From: a virus
Virus record (IMG/VR): IMGVR_UViG_3300044591_002313
Location: 1 to 51,801 of that record
DNA length: 51,801 nt
Reading direction: 5' to 3' (one strand)
In this document: piece after piece, positions 16,849 to 35,564 of the stretch
Layout of the letters: each line of letters opens with the position of its first letter
Position numbering within the stretch: the stretch's first letter is position 1
Made by a program: the position numbers and the translations under genes
Notes under the pieces: model-generated
Databases searched by the model: none
Seen by the model: only the letters and a program-made list of their open reading frames with translations
What the model was told of the DNA's origin: nothing

Positions 16849-17970
16849 TTATTTCTCGTATATTTTATTGTGGGTATTGTTTACTTGTAAAAATGTTGTT
16901 TTCTTACCAAAGTCTTTTATTTTATTGGCTCCTATATAGGTACATGCGCTACGAATACCTCCATAAATATCTTGTAGGATTTCTTCGGCAGTGCCTTTGT
17001 ATGGGACAGTAACGCATTTACCTTCTGCTGTTCGATATTGAGCTACTCCATTATGGTGTTTATCCATCGCATTTTTGCTGCTCATTCCGTAATATTTAAG
17101 TGATATTTTACGTTTAATATTATTACTACCAGGATTTAGAGATTGCCAAAATCCAGGAGCTGATGATCCAGCTTCTATATAGTATTCATACTCCCATTCT
17201 CCTTCACATTCGTCAGTACCAGCGAACATACTTCCCAACATTACAAAATCGGTATTGCCTCCAAAAGCCTTGCAAATATCTCCGACTACTTTGCAGCCTC
17301 CATCGCTACAGATATGTCCACCAAGACCATGTGCCGCATCAGCACACTCCATCACAGCACTAAGTTGAGGATAGCCAACTCCTGTTTTTAAACGAGTTGT
17401 ACAAACACTTCCTGATCCGATACCGACCTTAACAATATCGGCTTTTCCATGAATAATCAATTCCTCTACCATTTCGGGAGTTACTACATTTCCAGCCATT
17501 AGAATAATTTCTGGGAATAATTTACGAATATGAGCTGATATTTTTACAAATTGTTCAGTATATCCATTTGCTACATCTAGGCATATATTTGGTAATGTTC
17601 CTCCACTGGCTTTGATAGCGTTGAATATGTTTTCTAATTTATGTATGTCTTTGTTTGAGGTGCCTGTCGAATACCAAATTAGCTCGCTATTAATATTTGA
17701 TACAAATAGATTTACTAGCGTATCTGGATCATAATGTTTATGTAGGCATGTGATAGCCTTGTGTGGCTGGATAGCTTGTGCTATTTTTATGGTTCCAACA
17801 GTGTCCATGTTTGCAACCATTATAGGAACACAGGTCAACTCTCTTGGAGAGTGTGCAAATCGAAAAGTCCTTAATAAGTCAACTTCTGATCTACTATTTA
17901 GTGTGGATCTTTTGGGACGAATTAATACATCATCAAAATCTAGTTTAATCTCATTAATTATTTTTTGCAT
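16849..17970 (-). CDS. guaC: GMP reductase
   Basis: The sequence follows bacterial GuaC closely from end to end: LDFDDVLIRPKRSTL, VPIMVANMDTVGT, DVANGYTEQFV, the active-site loop VGIGSGSVCTTRLKTGVG with Cys190, SDGGC, FGGNTDFVMLGSMFAG and YYGMSS. At 373 residues it is slightly longer than E. coli GuaC, with an insert around 270-285. It converts GMP to IMP using NADPH and would shift host purine pools during infection. Its start overlaps the downstream end of the GT13-like gene by 17 bases. Confidence 0.92.
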   Translation of the reverse strand: MQKIINEIKLDFDDVLIRPKRSTLNSRSEVDLLRTFRFAHSPRELTCVPIMVANMDTVGTIKIAQAIQPHKAITCLHKHYDPDTLVNLFVSNINSELIWYSTGTSNKDIHKLENIFNAIKASGGTLPNICLDVANGYTEQFVKISAHIRKLFPEIILMAGNVVTPEMVEELIIHGKADIVKVGIGSGSVCTTRLKTGVGYPQLSAVMECADAAHGLGGHICSDGGCKVVGDICKAFGGNTDFVMLGSMFAGTDECEGEWEYEYYIEAGSSAPGFWQSLNPGSNNIKRKISLKYYGMSSKNAMDKHHNGVAQYRTAEGKCVTVPYKGTAEEILQDIYGGIRSACTYIGANKIKDFGKKTTFLQVNNTHNKIYEK

Positions 17971-27676: not shown

Positions 27677-28007
27677 TACTGCCTCCATTATTTTTAAGTT
27701 GAGAAAGCTTATCTACAGCTTCCATAATATTGTCTTTATTAATGCTATTTGAACCCAAAGAATCAAACATTTTAGTAAAATCATTATTTATATCATTAAC
27801 TACAATTGTTCTAGAGTCTATTTCTATTTTTTTTATTTTTTCTTTAGTGTTATTAGACAACTCGCTAACCTTATGTTTCTCTTGACTATCATTATTATAT
27901 ATTGCTACAGTTTTATTATTATTAGCAAAAATTAGCCATGCTAATAAAAAACCAATAGCTACACAAAACATATGTGTCAAAACAATAATGCTAGTTTCAA
28001 TATTCAT
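27669..28007 (-). CDS. Membrane-anchored coiled-coil protein, 112 aa
   Basis: An N-terminal transmembrane segment (about residues 7-26, IVLTHMFCVAIGFLLAWLIF) is followed by a charged, helical region with a coiled-coil appearance. It overlaps the actin-like gene by 8 bases and the subtilisin by 4, so it could anchor the actin-like protein to the membrane. That is inference from gene order. Confidence 0.6.
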   Translation of the reverse strand: MNIETSIIVLTHMFCVAIGFLLAWLIFANNNKTVAIYNNDSQEKHKVSELSNNTKEKIKKIEIDSRTIVVNDINNDFTKMFDSLGSNSINKDNIMEAVDKLSQLKNNGGSNG

Positions 28008-28921
28008 AGTACGCTTGATATATTAATAATGCCATAGCCTTGATATTTTTTAGCAGCATATGACTGATTTGTTAATTTAATAGAATGATCTTTAAAAATA
28101 TTTATATAGTCGTCTATTGTTTCTGGAACTTTTTTATTCATCTTTCTACTATACGATAAAACTAAAGCAGCACAACCGACAGCAAATGGATTACTCATGC
28201 TTGTGCCACTCATTAATGCATACCTGTTACCAGGAATACATCCCAAAATATTATTGCCCGGAGCGAGAAAGTCTAGAGAGTCACCACTGCATGTAAAATC
28301 TGTTCGATTTAAATCCTCATCTATTGCTCCAATAGCAATTGTATTATCGTATTTAGCAGGATACATTATATCTGTTCCTGGGCCAGAATTTCCGGCAGCA
28401 CAAAAAATTATGCTTCCTTTACCTGTCGCATAATTAATAGCATCTTCTATTGGTCTGGATTGGTATGGAGAACCAAGACTCATCGTTATAAAGTCAGCTT
28501 TTTGATCTGCTGCCCATCGTATCCCATCAGCAACATCTCTCATATCTCCGCTTCCATCGTCTCCCAAACTCTTAATTGGTAAAATTTTTGCTTTTGGCGC
28601 TACACCAACCATGCCAGTTCCATTATTACACGCTGCTATAGTAGACGATACGTGCGTTCCGTGACCAGCAACGTCGATAGGAATTGAATTACCGTCAACA
28701 AAATTTTTGCCAACTAGAACGTTGCTTTTTAGATCTTCATGATTAACATCACACCCAGTGTCTACTACCGCTACAACAACTCCGTCCCCTTCGCTTTTAG
28801 ACCACAGATTAGGAATGGAAAATTTTTGCAATTCCCATCCATAAATTTGTGGAGAATGAGTACTCATTGAGTTAAGATCTTCTTGTATATATGGCAATAA
28901 TTTTATTTTGCGTTTAAACAT
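28004..28921 (-). CDS. Subtilisin-like serine protease (intracellular subtilisin type)
   Basis: The subtilase triad is complete: Asp54 (AVVDTGCD), His87 (GHGTHV) and Ser241 (SGTSMSNP), with oxyanion Asn178 (AAGNSG). There is no signal peptide or large prodomain. The N-terminus has KLLPYIQ, like the short LIPY inhibitory extension of Bacillus intracellular subtilisins. The 305-residue length fits that class. It probably degrades host or phage proteins in the cytoplasm after self-activation. Confidence 0.9.
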   Translation of the reverse strand: MFKRKIKLLPYIQEDLNSMSTHSPQIYGWELQKFSIPNLWSKSEGDGVVVAVVDTGCDVNHEDLKSNVLVGKNFVDGNSIPIDVAGHGTHVSSTIAACNNGTGMVGVAPKAKILPIKSLGDDGSGDMRDVADGIRWAADQKADFITMSLGSPYQSRPIEDAINYATGKGSIIFCAAGNSGPGTDIMYPAKYDNTIAIGAIDEDLNRTDFTCSGDSLDFLAPGNNILGCIPGNRYALMSGTSMSNPFAVGCAALVLSYSRKMNKKVPETIDDYINIFKDHSIKLTNQSYAAKKYQGYGIINISSVL

Positions 28922-29677
28922 CTATTTTCTTTCTGTTTGTAAAAATTTTTTGTTAGTATTTATCCATTCTATATGATCGCTAATTCTAGTATGTGCGCTC
29001 GTTTGATTTAGCCCAGATTTGGTTGCTGATATGTATGAATGTATACCAGCTAATTTGTTTCCTATAAATAAACCGCCACCACTGTCTCCAGGAGATATAA
29101 AAAATTCTAGTTCTGTTTTATTAATTGATCTAGAAGGAGTGCAGACTAATACTCCTAATTCTATTTCGTCAATCTTATTAGAACCGGCTCTCATAATTCC
29201 ATCAAGCTTGATTGGACCCGTATCGAATGTGCCAGTTTTACCAAAACCAGCCATACAGCAAATCTTACTGTTTTCATCTTTTTGATTGTAAAGTTCAGGA
29301 TACCACTTTAATCCTATAGAATTTTCAGTTTTACATATTGCTATATCATTATATCCTAAAGTTGAAGATTCAAATAGTTTATGTATTACCATATCAGAAA
29401 TATGTAATTTTTTATTGTTTATATGAATATGCGCTGATTTAGAAACAGATGCCACATGAGCAGCAGTTAGAATTATATTATCGTCTATTGCTACACACGA
29501 TGCTGAATATGGTTCTTGGTCTGTTGTTGTTCCAATAATTTTACCTATATAAACAAAATCTTTGGCATATTCTACGTATTTAGAATCGTCAATATCTGGA
29601 TCAATAGTCCCAGACACAAGATTTTGATTACAATGTAATAATAACACAAGTATTAAAAAATATTTGATATATTTCAT
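28922..29677 (-). CDS. Exported trypsin-like serine protease
   Basis: I choose the ATG at 29675-29677, which has GGAG upstream and gives a proper signal peptide (MKYIKYFLILVLLLHC). The 251-residue protein has the triad His74 (ILTAAHV), Asp111 (LGYNDIAIC) and Ser199 (SPGDSGGGLF). It should work in the periplasm or outside the cell. It is the secreted counterpart of the protease at 26016. Confidence 0.88.
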   Translation of the reverse strand: MKYIKYFLILVLLLHCNQNLVSGTIDPDIDDSKYVEYAKDFVYIGKIIGTTTDQEPYSASCVAIDDNIILTAAHVASVSKSAHIHINNKKLHISDMVIHKLFESSTLGYNDIAICKTENSIGLKWYPELYNQKDENSKICCMAGFGKTGTFDTGPIKLDGIMRAGSNKIDEIELGVLVCTPSRSINKTELEFFISPGDSGGGLFIGNKLAGIHSYISATKSGLNQTSAHTRISDHIEWINTNKKFLQTERK

Positions 29678-29718
29678 ATTTTGTTCTCCACAATATAATT
29701 GTACCCCATTTAAATATA

Positions 29719-30576
29719 TCAATCTACAAAAATACCTTCAAATTCATCCATTAAAAATCTTCTTAGATCGCTAGTATCCGAATGATTTCTTAAATGCATT
29801 AATAATTCGTCTTGAGCTTTAGAAGGGAAAGTCTCATGTCCTTCAAAAAAAATTTTTTCAGATTTGATCAAAAAATATTTAATAGCATGTTTAAACTGTG
29901 CATTTTTCATCCAATAATCAACATCATGATCCTTAACAGCCATAGCCAATGCTGTGCAATATATACTAAACTCCAACGCTCCTGAAACACTATCGGCTTT
30001 TTGCGTTTCTATTTTTCCATTAATATGATCATCAACTGCGCATTCAGCACCAGCAATATATGCCGACCACTCATCGATAGGATAAGTAGGGGTATCATTC
30101 CAATCTGCTAACTGTTTCTCAAAATATAATTCAAATCTATATCCTCTTACTGTCTTTGGTATATATGAAATAATATGTTTCATTGTTATATTTGGTTCTT
30201 CTATCAGAATACCTTTACCAGAGCCAGCATAAAAACCATTAAATTTCTTTTTAGAAGTTTTAGTATAATGATTCCTTAATACATTATTAATACCATGAAC
30301 TGTCTCATGGGCATTTGTACTTCTTCCGTGATGATCTCCAAATGGCTCTGTAATAGAATGTGATAAAATTTCATCATATATCAATAATTGTTTTTGTTCT
30401 CTATATTTTGGAATATCTATTAATTTTAACCCTACAGATATTACTCTTTCTCCTGGGCCAGAGAACTCTTTGACTACTACGTACCTATATGGTAACCTAT
30501 GATGTATACCATAAGCATATGCTGTAGAAAAATTTATAAGAGTAAAAAATATAAGAAGATATTTATTTATTTTCAT
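29719..30576 (-). CDS. Exported zinc metalloprotease candidate (HExxH)
   Basis: A signal peptide (LLIFFTLINFSTAYA) precedes a 260-residue domain with NAHETVHGINN: His90, Glu91 and His94 form HExxH. A later PIDEWSAYIAGAECA could supply the third zinc ligand (Glu169 or Glu178). I do not recognise the family, so this is a prediction from the motif and secretion signal. It overlaps the thioredoxin gene by 14 bases. Confidence 0.65.
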   Translation of the reverse strand: MKINKYLLIFFTLINFSTAYAYGIHHRLPYRYVVVKEFSGPGERVISVGLKLIDIPKYREQKQLLIYDEILSHSITEPFGDHHGRSTNAHETVHGINNVLRNHYTKTSKKKFNGFYAGSGKGILIEEPNITMKHIISYIPKTVRGYRFELYFEKQLADWNDTPTYPIDEWSAYIAGAECAVDDHINGKIETQKADSVSGALEFSIYCTALAMAVKDHDVDYWMKNAQFKHAIKYFLIKSEKIFFEGHETFPSKAQDELLMHLRNHSDTSDLRRFLMDEFEGIFVD

Positions 30577-32002: not shown

Positions 32003-32899
32003 TTAAAGATCCCCTATAATCCTTCCCTTCGGAGTTCTAACAACGTATCCCATTCTTAGCAGAAATGGCTCGATACTATTTTCTATAGTTTCAACAGCAA
32101 TGCCTGTTAGTGATGATATACTCTTAAGACCTAGTGGGGACATTTTATGCTTTTTCAGTACTTCTAAATACATTCTATCATACATATCCAATCCCTTACC
32201 GTCGATTCCCTGGTTCATAAAAACCTCATTAACAGAGATGTCCTCTGCATTATTGTGGTAAGAGACAAAACTTTTATACCATTGTAGCCTAGCGTTTAGG
32301 ATTCTGGGAGTACCTTTGCTTCTTTGTGCAATTTCTAATAGCTCTTGCTCAGAAAGATTTAGTCCGAGCTTTTTTGCGTTCGACTCTGCCAGTTTAGCTA
32401 AGTCTTTAGTAGAGTAAAACGACAGATGCTCTTTAATTGAGAACCTATCATAGAATGGTTGGCTAAGGCTTCCTCCACTAGTTGTTGCTCCAATTAAAGT
32501 AAATACAGGAATATCTATTTGTTCTGGTTTGCTTTCTAGCACCAGATTCAGAACAAAATCTTCCATAACAGGATACAAAAATTCTTCTACCAATTTAGGC
32601 AGTCTATGGATTTCGTCTATAAATAGTACTGCTCTTGGAGCTATTCCCATCAGATACGGTAAAATATTTTTGACACTGCGAATGTTAGCGGCATTTAAAG
32701 TATGTAAATTAACACCTAGTTCATTTGCAATGGCACTTGCAATGGTAGTTTTTCCAAGACCGGGAGGCCCATCAATGAGAATATGTGGCATAGCAGTTTC
32801 GCTTGCTTTACATCCACTAACTACAATATTGAGTCTTGTTACAACATCTTGTTGTCCAATAATATCTCCAAATGATGTTGGTCTAATTGCATTACTCAT
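32003..32899 (-). CDS. ruvB: RuvB-like Holliday-junction branch-migration ATPase
   Basis: I start at the ATG at 32897-32899; an in-frame ATG nine bases earlier lies too close to the GGAG site. The 298-residue protein has all RuvB marks: RPTSFGDIIGQ, Walker A GPPGLGKTT (44-52), Walker B FIDEIH (93-98), GATTSGGSLSQPFYDRF and KGTPRILNARL, then the winged-helix region with MSPLGLKSIS and RTPKGRIIGDL. The usual final Arg of KGTPRIANR is altered. No RuvC is in the window. Confidence 0.9.
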   Translation of the reverse strand: MSNAIRPTSFGDIIGQQDVVTRLNIVVSGCKASETAMPHILIDGPPGLGKTTIASAIANELGVNLHTLNAANIRSVKNILPYLMGIAPRAVLFIDEIHRLPKLVEEFLYPVMEDFVLNLVLESKPEQIDIPVFTLIGATTSGGSLSQPFYDRFSIKEHLSFYSTKDLAKLAESNAKKLGLNLSEQELLEIAQRSKGTPRILNARLQWYKSFVSYHNNAEDISVNEVFMNQGIDGKGLDMYDRMYLEVLKKHKMSPLGLKSISSLTGIAVETIENSIEPFLLRMGYVVRTPKGRIIGDL

Positions 32900-33401
32900 T
32901 ATTTTCATTCTCCAAAGGTATATTACTCAAACAATGCTTAATAAAATCTGCATAGGTTGAATATGTTTTTTGTTTTTGATATGTATCGTAAATTAACTGT
33001 TTCGCTTCTGAGGAAGTAAATCCATAGCCCGTTAAAGCAGGCACACAGGCATTGAACAAATCTTGCGGCGGGTCTGCCATTATAACCGATGGCTCAGTAC
33101 TTGCAACCTCTTGATTAAATTCTGTTTTGGCTGACTCCATAGGCTCTGAGACTACCAGATTGATATCCGTAGAAATAGGCGTCTGCACTTTAATTTTTTG
33201 TTTGTATTTAAATTTTATATCATCTATTAATTTGGGCTTTAAAATACTGTTACATTCACAAACAATAATGAACCCTCTTGTACTTGCCTCTCTAAGAGAT
33301 ATCCAGTGATTGATATCGCAAGTCGGACACTTATATTGTAGATGTATATCTGTGTTTATCGGTTTAAGATTTTTTATCAGGCGAGTCTGTTTGGTTATCA
33401 T
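32892..33401 (-). CDS. Zinc-ribbon protein with RuvA-domain-III-like C-terminus
   Basis: I take the ATG at 33399-33401 as the start. Cys25, Cys28, Cys48 and Cys50 form an N-terminal zinc ribbon. A disordered middle follows, and residues about 113-161 (FNACVPALTGYGFTSSEAK ... DFIKHCLSNI) resemble RuvA domain III, the small helical domain that contacts RuvB. It lies immediately upstream of ruvB and overlaps it, so it probably recruits RuvB to DNA or to another partner. RuvA domains I and II are absent. Confidence 0.6.
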   Translation of the reverse strand: MITKQTRLIKNLKPINTDIHLQYKCPTCDINHWISLREASTRGFIIVCECNSILKPKLIDDIKFKYKQKIKVQTPISTDINLVVSEPMESAKTEFNQEVASTEPSVIMADPPQDLFNACVPALTGYGFTSSEAKQLIYDTYQKQKTYSTYADFIKHCLSNIPLENENNE

Positions 33402-33792
33402 TTTTTGTCCAAAAAATAAAGTCATCGGAATCTGAATCGTAAGCCGTCTCTAACACTCCTTTATTAACCAAATTATTAAGCATATTACTAACCATTCTAC
33501 TATTAAATGTTTCAATCATTTTCATATAGTTATTAGTAGAAACAAGATATCTAATTTTTTTGTTTTGTTTATGTTTCTGTTCCTTAATAAAGTCTTTAGA
33601 CATAAGTATACATTCTGCCTGGGATAAAACAGAGTCTAGTTCTTCTCTTTCTTCTTGTTGCAATAAAGAAATATCGTATTCGGTATCCAGTATGTCTTTT
33701 TTTGTTTCTGATCCAAAACTTTGGAATATTAATACTCTAGTATTTTCTATAAATTTATCTAAGTCATCTATAATAAATGTTTGATTAGCCAT
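33364..33792 (-). CDS. Hypothetical protein, 142 aa
   Basis: A helical acidic protein (IDDLDKFIENTRVLIF at the start). The C-terminal part has MVSNMLNNLVNKGVLETAYD, which resembles a winged-helix segment. It overlaps the zinc-ribbon gene by 38 bases. No clear family. It might work with RuvB. Confidence 0.55.
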   Translation of the reverse strand: MANQTFIIDDLDKFIENTRVLIFQSFGSETKKDILDTEYDISLLQQEEREELDSVLSQAECILMSKDFIKEQKHKQNKKIRYLVSTNNYMKMIETFNSRMVSNMLNNLVNKGVLETAYDSDSDDFIFWTKNDNQTDSPDKKS

Positions 33793-33798
33793 TTTGGG

Positions 33799-34197
33799 TT
33801 AGTTCATTATGTCGAACATTCCTTTGTAATAATGAGGTTGCTTCAAAAAATGTTCTGTGTACTGAGACAAATGAGCAATATACTCGCTATGATGTTTGTC
33901 GTGTAAAAAGTATTTCTTTTTCCATATAGGATTACCTTGATAGTTATTCCCCAAATACTGGAAGGTTTTATCCTTGCCAGTATTGGAGAAGTAACTACTC
34001 ACAGGAAACTTTTTAATAGGAAAGCCAGGGATATTAGTAATACTAAAGTTTAAATCGTTCAACACATCCTGTATCCACTTGGAAAAGGGGGTATCTGAAC
34101 CAACATCAAACTTATAATACCACTGATATGGATTTAGGGAAGGGTGATCTTTGTCAAAATCATCCTCATCGTATTCTTCATCAAAATCCTCGTACAT
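33799..34197 (-). CDS. Hypothetical protein with acidic N-terminus, 132 aa
   Basis: The first 17 residues are almost all Asp, Glu, Tyr and Phe (MYEDFDEEYDEDDFDKD). The remainder is a tryptophan- and tyrosine-rich globular domain (YQWYYKFDVGSDTPFSKWI, FFLHDKHHSEYIAHL-like segment). No family recognised. It has a possible promoter directly upstream. Confidence 0.55.
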   Translation of the reverse strand: MYEDFDEEYDEDDFDKDHPSLNPYQWYYKFDVGSDTPFSKWIQDVLNDLNFSITNIPGFPIKKFPVSSYFSNTGKDKTFQYLGNNYQGNPIWKKKYFLHDKHHSEYIAHLSQYTEHFLKQPHYYKGMFDIMN

Positions 34198-34263: not shown

Positions 34264-35439
34264 TTAGCCAATACAAAATTGATCACTAATCTGGTTTGCC
34301 AGATCGCGGGCAGCACCAGAAAGGAATCGGTTGTTGCTGAAATACAATGCTGTAGACGCTTGATTGAGGTACTCGACCACCGTTTTTAAAAGTTTGGCCT
34401 GGGACTCACTCAAATCTAAACCGTTGTCACCAGAATGAGATGGCAATACTGGCGACGGATCACCATAAACCTTTTCGTAGTTATTGCCGTAAGACTTATT
34501 GCACTTATATTCTCCATATTTGGTGGTGTTGTCGAGCTGCTTATTAAAGTCTCCCCACACACTATCTTTAGTATTCTTTTGACCACAATAATCAGCAGTG
34601 CTGTTAGTGTAAACAGCCTTCTGGTTATTTAGTTCGTTCAAAATGTTCTGAGCAGCCTCTACTGTTACAGGAATTCCTGTGATATCAGACTGCTTATATG
34701 TTTTACGCCACTGTTCAAACCAAGCATCAGACGTTGCATTAGGAACAATAGTTACTGTTGCTGGTTGACCAGTTAACGCTTCAATCAAATCCTTAACATT
34801 AACTGTTTGACCAGTTGAGCCTTGAAGAATAGTAGAGTAATAAGGGGCTTTCTTTTCCCAACACTTACGCCACCAAGTATAAGGAACACGATAAATCTGA
34901 TTAATCTTGATGGCTCTTGCATCTCCGCCAAAGTAATTTACAAGTTTCTTTTGGATACCATTCCAACGAGTCTTGTTAAGAGACTGTCTGCTCATTTTAT
35001 CAAGAACCCAGTAAACTTGATAACCATTACGAGTATCAACAACCCAACTAGGTTGAACAGGGAAACCGTTGATCTTCTGAAGAAACTCTGTCTTTTTAGC
35101 CATTACTTCCTTAGAAGAAAGATAATTACCATTAGCATCTCGACCAGCATCAATATCAACAAAACAGGCTCGTACTTCGTTAATAGCATACTGCTTTCGT
35201 CCACCGTTTACATAAAAGTAAACATCTGAATCATTATTAAGGTTAGCGTGGACTGCTGTTGTTAGGTGGTCAGTATGAGCCATACTACTAATCTTCTTGC
35301 GAGGATTACCGTTATAGCAATAAATTTGCTGACTACCAAAAGACTCAATAAACTGTCCTCTCATCTTACAATGATTGGTATCAAAAGCGTTGTTTGTGTT
35401 CTTATCGTAAGGATTAAAGCCAAGGTTTCCATTAAACAT
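34264..35439 (-). CDS. Primase-like (AEP/RepB-primase-type) protein
   Basis: I start at the ATG at 35437-35439 (AGGAA upstream); codons further upstream run into a tRNA-like element. The 391-residue protein shows three motifs in the order of archaeo-eukaryotic primase-like proteins: FVDIDAG (94-99, DxD), VVDTRNGYQVYWVL (133-146) and INQIYRVPYTWW (179-190, the RxP motif). The remaining 200 residues hold a low-complexity Asn/Thr region and a helical C-terminus. Priming or polymerase activity is inferred. Confidence 0.6.
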   Translation of the reverse strand: MFNGNLGFNPYDKNTNNAFDTNHCKMRGQFIESFGSQQIYCYNGNPRKKISSMAHTDHLTTAVHANLNNDSDVYFYVNGGRKQYAINEVRACFVDIDAGRDANGNYLSSKEVMAKKTEFLQKINGFPVQPSWVVDTRNGYQVYWVLDKMSRQSLNKTRWNGIQKKLVNYFGGDARAIKINQIYRVPYTWWRKCWEKKAPYYSTILQGSTGQTVNVKDLIEALTGQPATVTIVPNATSDAWFEQWRKTYKQSDITGIPVTVEAAQNILNELNNQKAVYTNSTADYCGQKNTKDSVWGDFNKQLDNTTKYGEYKCNKSYGNNYEKVYGDPSPVLPSHSGDNGLDLSESQAKLLKTVVEYLNQASTALYFSNNRFLSGAARDLANQISDQFCIG

Positions 35440-35508
35440 AATCTTATTCCTGTAATTAATTAACCATGCCGGGATAGCAAACCCATTACTATCATTATCA
35501 GCAAAAAA

Positions 35509-35564
35509 AGATAGGATTGGAATCGAACCAATCAATAACTAGTATCCGCACCAGCGGCCCATCT
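35509..35564 (-). other. tRNA-like element lacking a full set of arms
   Basis: The minus strand folds as a 7-bp acceptor stem (35558-35564 with 35509-35515, one G-U) and a perfect T-arm (stem 35528-35532 with 35516-35520, loop TTCGATT), but only 25 bases lie between them instead of about 39. They can form one stem (CTGGT with ACTAG, or CCGC with GCGG), so either the D-arm or the anticodon arm is missing. A T-run follows. It lies between rIIB and the primase-like gene. Confidence 0.45.

Follow-up and report, generated by a model that had tools for sequence, protein, structure and literature searches.

A candidate zinc-ribbon adaptor with a RuvA domain III, encoded beside ruvB in uncultured aquatic phages

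The RuvAB complex is a textbook molecular motor, in which RuvA supplies both a core that holds the junction and a domain that tethers and operates RuvB. Domain III of RuvA binds the RuvB large domain at helix alpha3 and the presensor-1 hairpin, and acts both as a tether for the motor and as a nucleotide exchange factor (PMC9477746). In E. coli the hairpin that contacts domain III spans RuvB residues L135-L152, and alanine mutants of RuvA L167 and L170 abolish RuvB activity in vivo while junction binding is unaffected (PMC2628435). RuvA and RuvB from different species are able to complement each other (PMC9477746). Among phages, the recombination sets of jumbo phages include RuvC-like or endonuclease VII resolvases, and in a large survey RuvC was uncoupled from any RuvB-like ATPase (PMC7824862). 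In the open-licence literature we found no paper describing the arrangement reported here, a phage ruvB paired with a gene that joins a zinc ribbon to domain III (ZnR-D3).

We identified this pair in a 51.8 kb virus fragment (IMG/VR record IMGVR_UViG_3300044591_002313; the window, 51,801 nucleotides in all), where the genes in question lie on the minus strand (Table 1). Both ORFs are found where an earlier note on this DNA had placed them, with ruvB overlapped by the gene on its 5' side. The overlap is 17 nt, or 8 nt if ruvB starts at its second ATG, at 32899. This ATG lies 10 nt after a GGAG and would give a protein of 298 aa. Because of the GGAG spacing and the better fit to the way in which the proteins of relatives begin ('M(S/A)N.IRP'), it is probably the true start and the first ATG is not. 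The adaptor gene is less likely to start at its alternative ATG, at 33425. Further upstream, the acidic 132-aa ORF (33799-34197, minus strand) recurs in almost every related locus. Its C-terminus around YYKGMFDILN is common to them, and it matches no known family. The ORF at 34264-35535 (minus strand) has weak similarity to primases (PHROG 10514, E 5.5e-8) and occurs in many, but not all, relatives.

Table 1. Features of the ruvB locus, in window coordinates.
Feature	Position	Strand	Description or basis
Gene order		-	RIIA, RIIB, primase-like ORF, 132-aa ORF, winged-helix-like ORF, ZnR-D3 gene, ruvB
Phage ruvB	32003..32908	-	301 aa; AAA+ core, lid, winged-helix C-terminus
ZnR-D3 adaptor gene (putative)	32892..33401	-	169 aa; directly 5' of ruvB
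Adaptor basic N-terminus and zinc ribbon, residues 1-66	33204..33401	-	Cys conservation, AlphaFold pLDDT, charge
Adaptor flexible linker, residues 67-110	33072..33203	-	Low pLDDT, variable length
Adaptor RuvA domain III-like three-helix domain, residues 111-161	32919..33071	-	Profile and fold comparisons
RuvB presensor-1 hairpin (counterpart of E. coli L135-L152)	32507..32554	-	Alignment; role from PMC2628435, PMC9477746
Winged-helix-like gene	33364..33792	-	142 aa; more constant ruvB neighbour

The identity of the adaptor C-terminal domain (D3) as RuvA domain III is firm, because sequence-profile, profile-profile, reverse-profile and predicted-fold comparisons all select it and shuffled controls fail. 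The earlier note had read the upstream gene as a four-cysteine zinc ribbon with a tail resembling domain III; profile searches, hhalign and Foldseek agree with that reading, and neither the profiles nor the AlphaFold model point to another fold for the C-terminal part. A single adaptor sequence has no Pfam match, and a PHROG scan returned nothing useful. As such scans were empty, homologues were gathered via ruvB and 39 diverse adaptors were made into a profile. Against 177,635 distinct PDB sequences, the best natural chain for this profile is Thermus RuvA domain III (1ixs_A, E 0.0016). Further RuvA chains are listed, and no non-RuvA natural protein falls below E 0.1. The first rank is taken by a designed repeat protein, as the sum of three weak copies with E-values of 18-34 each. 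For comparison, the E-value with which E. coli domain III retrieves 1ixs_A is 0.0062. Alignment of D3 with seven bacterial domain IIIs by hhalign gives a probability of 94.9% (E 4.4e-8, 50 columns), against 3.2% for the best of 100 column shuffles and 0.23% for the UBA-like N-domain of EF-Ts. In the reverse direction, a bacterial domain III profile searched against the ORFs of approximately 200 viral loci returns ZnR-D3 proteins in all of the top 25 places (best E 4e-5).

The AlphaFold model of the adaptor is confident for residues 11-60 and 111-160, with pLDDT block means mostly of 90-98. The top Foldseek matches for D3 are RuvA structures (7oa5, 2ztd; probability 0.99), most with an rmsd of 1.3-1.9 over 45-47 columns, and the comparison with 1ixs_A gives a TM-score of 0.69 by target length (rmsd 1.9 over 46 columns). 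All Foldseek E-values are 0.3 or higher, which is to be expected of a domain of 47 residues. The positions of E. coli RuvA L167 (L or M) and L170 (Y, L or F), needed for RuvB activity, are conserved in 88 of 88 distinct homologues. That of G171 (G) also holds in 88 of 88, and those of Y172 (F or Y) and E176 (E) in 86 of 88. The resulting motif, L..(Y/L)G(F/Y)...E, has identical spacing in RuvA domain III and D3. Across ten pairs of adaptors dN/dS is 0.08-0.36, and the gene is therefore under purifying selection.

The adaptor resembles bacterial RuvA in having a C-terminal domain III on a flexible linker, in the position of its gene just before ruvB and in the key hydrophobic positions of the domain. 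However, the OB-fold domain I is missing, and there is no sign in the 169-aa model or the alignment of domain II with its helix-hairpin-helix, tetramer and acidic pin. By membership the protein is thus not a RuvA, yet on sequence grounds it appears to carry the part of RuvA that operates RuvB. In place of domains I and II stands a basic four-cysteine zinc ribbon. The four cysteines (25, 28, 48 and 50) are invariant in all 88 distinct homologues, and H32 and W33 are kept in 81 and 87 of them. Block means of pLDDT reach 93-98 over residues 11-60. The N-terminal segment is basic, with a family mean net charge of +6.7, and D3 is slightly acidic; the linker between them varies from 10 to 59 aa across the family and has low pLDDT. 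Structural matches to the ribbon are generic (zinc ribbons, ribosomal S27e, ZitP), and a Foldseek search of viral models found no homologue of the architecture that combines zinc ribbon and D3.

The RuvB of the window is complete. The Pfam domains RuvB_N (1.9e-46), RuvB_C (6e-19) and the lid AAA_lid_4 (4.7e-9) all score above the Pfam cut-offs, and the match to solved RuvB in the PDB has E 6e-68. Like bacterial RuvB, to which it is approximately 35-41% identical, it has the AAA+ core, lid, winged helix and DNA-binding wing. Walker A and B, the arginine finger and the sensor-2 arginine are invariant in an alignment of 97 phage RuvBs, and the basic positions of the DNA-contacting wing (R/K..K..R) are retained in nearly all of these. 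Unlike in bacterial RuvB, the N- and C-terminal ends are shorter, and in all 97 the presensor-1 hairpin is four residues shorter in alignment than in E. coli, some relatives having a few extra residues elsewhere in this hairpin. The hydrophobic positions of I150 and L152 and the helix after Walker B are retained. The hairpins of RuvBs with and without an adaptor show no clear difference among the 97, so that the hairpin gives no evidence for co-adaptation. RuvBs of named phages are 35-40% identical. Two matches in records filed as phages, Acinetobacter phage MD-2021a and Wolbachia phage WO (CAKLQF020000007.1 and MN180249.1), were rejected as phage relatives, since they are arranged as ruvA-ruvB with host-type neighbours and are probably host DNA. 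A defence-system scan gave only generic AAA matches for RuvB.

The arrangement belongs to large phages, uncultured and aquatic, in which ruvB usually shares an operon with the adaptor gene. The adaptor gene lies directly before ruvB, adjacent or overlapping, in 73 of the 80 viral contigs that carry a close RuvB. In a wider set of 100 loci with distinct RuvBs it is present in 77. The pair, which the earlier note had proposed to look for in related phages, is thus present at most loci, but 23 have no adaptor, and on three long adaptor-less contigs (229, 192 and 95 kb) there is no copy elsewhere. The pair is therefore not obligate, and ZnR-D3 is not a universal partner of phage RuvB. The adaptor is missing from the deepest phage branches of the RuvB tree, and its other absences are scattered, suggesting one gain followed by several losses, with a root left uncertain by long branches; in the first tree the absences need four changes, three of them forced by supported branches. 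In all but one (L156) of the adaptor-less loci the winged-helix-like gene adjoins ruvB, and RuvB may have its true core partner in the protein that this gene encodes. This protein has no sequence-level relative in the PDB and weak MarR-like structural matches only (E 0.19 or worse).

Genes for the remainder of the resolvasome were sought in sets of 22 records (for RuvA_N, the window and 21 relatives), the relatives being of up to 238 kb, with bacterial positive controls detected for the RuvA, RuvC and DnaN families. The OB-fold domain I (RuvA_N) is not found in any of them, in agreement with the earlier note, which had seen no intact RuvA. RuvA_C is likewise not found above the cut-off in the 22 records, the one weak match being the adaptor itself; of 19 known adaptors this Pfam model recovers only one, and a very divergent second copy could therefore escape it. 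Unlike bacterial RuvB, the phage protein is encoded without a detectable RuvA or RuvC. RuvC is not found in the 22 records and, unlike in the RuvABC resolvasome, endonuclease VII is present instead in 13 of the 22. One relative (G008) encodes a UvsX-like recombinase, a DnaB helicase, a primase and endonuclease VII, and in their endonuclease VII-type resolvase and UvsX-like recombinase these phages resemble the jumbo-phage sets (PMC7824862). An N-terminal segment of Pol III alpha occurs in 15 of the 22 records. In G008 (L098:1066-2943, minus strand) it is a 625-aa protein limited to PHP and NTPase domains. As the related records yielded neither PolB nor PolA, replication in these phages may depend on a Pol III alpha that is split.

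Most likely, a RuvA-type tether and exchange domain has been transplanted onto a basic zinc ribbon, where it would link the phage RuvB to DNA or nucleoprotein other than a junction held by RuvA. Specifically, we propose, with a probability of about 0.5, that ZnR-D3, with its two domains, is an adaptor for the RuvB that the phage itself encodes, and that the zinc ribbon binds the substrate in place of RuvA domains I and II. D3 would dock on helix alpha3 and the presensor-1 hairpin of the RuvB large domain, tether the hexamer and aid nucleotide exchange. The earlier note had placed the contact on the RuvB small domain; this disagrees with RuvAB, in which the large domain is used (PMC9477746), and the corresponding surface is retained here, with the hairpin shortened by four residues. 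The substrate picked by the basic ribbon on its flexible linker would most likely be DNA at recombination intermediates, either branched or duplex, or else a replication or recombination protein on such DNA. The RuvB ring would then pump duplex DNA, and cleavage of the junctions may fall to the phage endonuclease VII. The D3 matches, the L167 and L170 positions, the intact motor, the gene order in 73 of 80 contigs, UvsX and endonuclease VII, and the lack of RuvA_N and RuvC support this proposal. The adaptor-less loci, and a hairpin that is shorter whether or not an adaptor is present, count against it. The minimal replacement suggested in the earlier note is supported in part only, since phage RuvB is evidently not strictly dependent on the adaptor, and the role of a loader is hypothetical.

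Alternatively, the phage RuvB could use host RuvA, as adaptor-less lineages would need to, and ZnR-D3 could be an accessory regulator that competes for the same site on RuvB and redirects or throttles the motor. Many lineages, the deepest branches included, retain RuvB although they have no adaptor, and RuvA and RuvB are known to complement each other across species (PMC9477746). However, the use of host RuvA is not assured, given a hairpin shorter than that of bacterial RuvBs, and the adaptor, where present, directly precedes ruvB. We regard this reading as unlikely.

It is improbable that the pair serves another process, for example the loading of DnaB helicase or of a clamp, or transcription, in which the zinc ribbon and the winged-helix neighbour would do the targeting. 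In its favour, the 22 records contain no complete clamp-loader-like AAA+ match (phrog_168) other than RuvB, and just one further match, weak and partial, in G022. The Pol III alpha of these phages is minimal, and the winged-helix-like protein is nearly constant beside ruvB. Similarly, the T4 gp44/gp62 clamp loader is an AAA+ ATPase with a small partner gene adjoining, and there is weak profile similarity. However, the domain order is that of RuvB, and the C-terminal winged-helix domain and the DNA-pumping wing are retained. No clamp with a gp45 C-domain or DnaN N-domain was found in the 22 records, where a divergent clamp could escape. This weakens the clamp-loader reading, and the clamp-like adaptor suggested in the earlier note finds no support.

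More doubtful still is a decoy, in which D3 would bind host RuvB, bar host RuvA and so disable RuvABC at phage forks and junctions. An isolated domain III, lacking the junction-binding core, would be expected to be dominant-negative on RuvAB. However, the gene adjoins or overlaps the phage ruvB in nearly all homologues, and a decoy has no need of a zinc ribbon with such conserved cysteines. Finally, although RuvA domain III itself has a UBA-like fold and, taken singly, 8 of 39 adaptors give weak scores with Pfam RuvA_C (best E 0.0043), it is very improbable that D3 is an unrelated UBA-like three-helix bundle of convergent resemblance, given that RuvA stands alone among natural PDB chains below E 0.1, that the EF-Ts control scores so low, that the reverse search selects ZnR-D3, that the spacing of the motif is shared and that the gene adjoins a RuvB gene.

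The arrangement adds RuvB to the phage recombination repertoire and, if the adaptor proposal is correct, is a new variant of the RuvAB motor. Evolution would have separated the two roles of RuvA, keeping domain III on a different targeting module, while some phages do without. More tentatively, the motor may have been freed from the RuvA tetramer, with the zinc ribbon bringing the functions of D3 to another DNA structure or protein and some lineages working free of the adaptor; this would be a new kind of DNA-pumping machine in phages. Such a separation makes it possible to test what domain III does alone, and whether RuvB acts away from Holliday junctions.

Other genes on the minus strand of the window were also recognized. 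Downstream of ruvB, sequence motifs mark a subtilisin-like and a trypsin-like protease gene (28004-28921 and 28922-29722), a pair that is kept in many relatives. The gene at 16849-17970 encodes an IMP dehydrogenase / GMP reductase domain (Pfam 2e-60).
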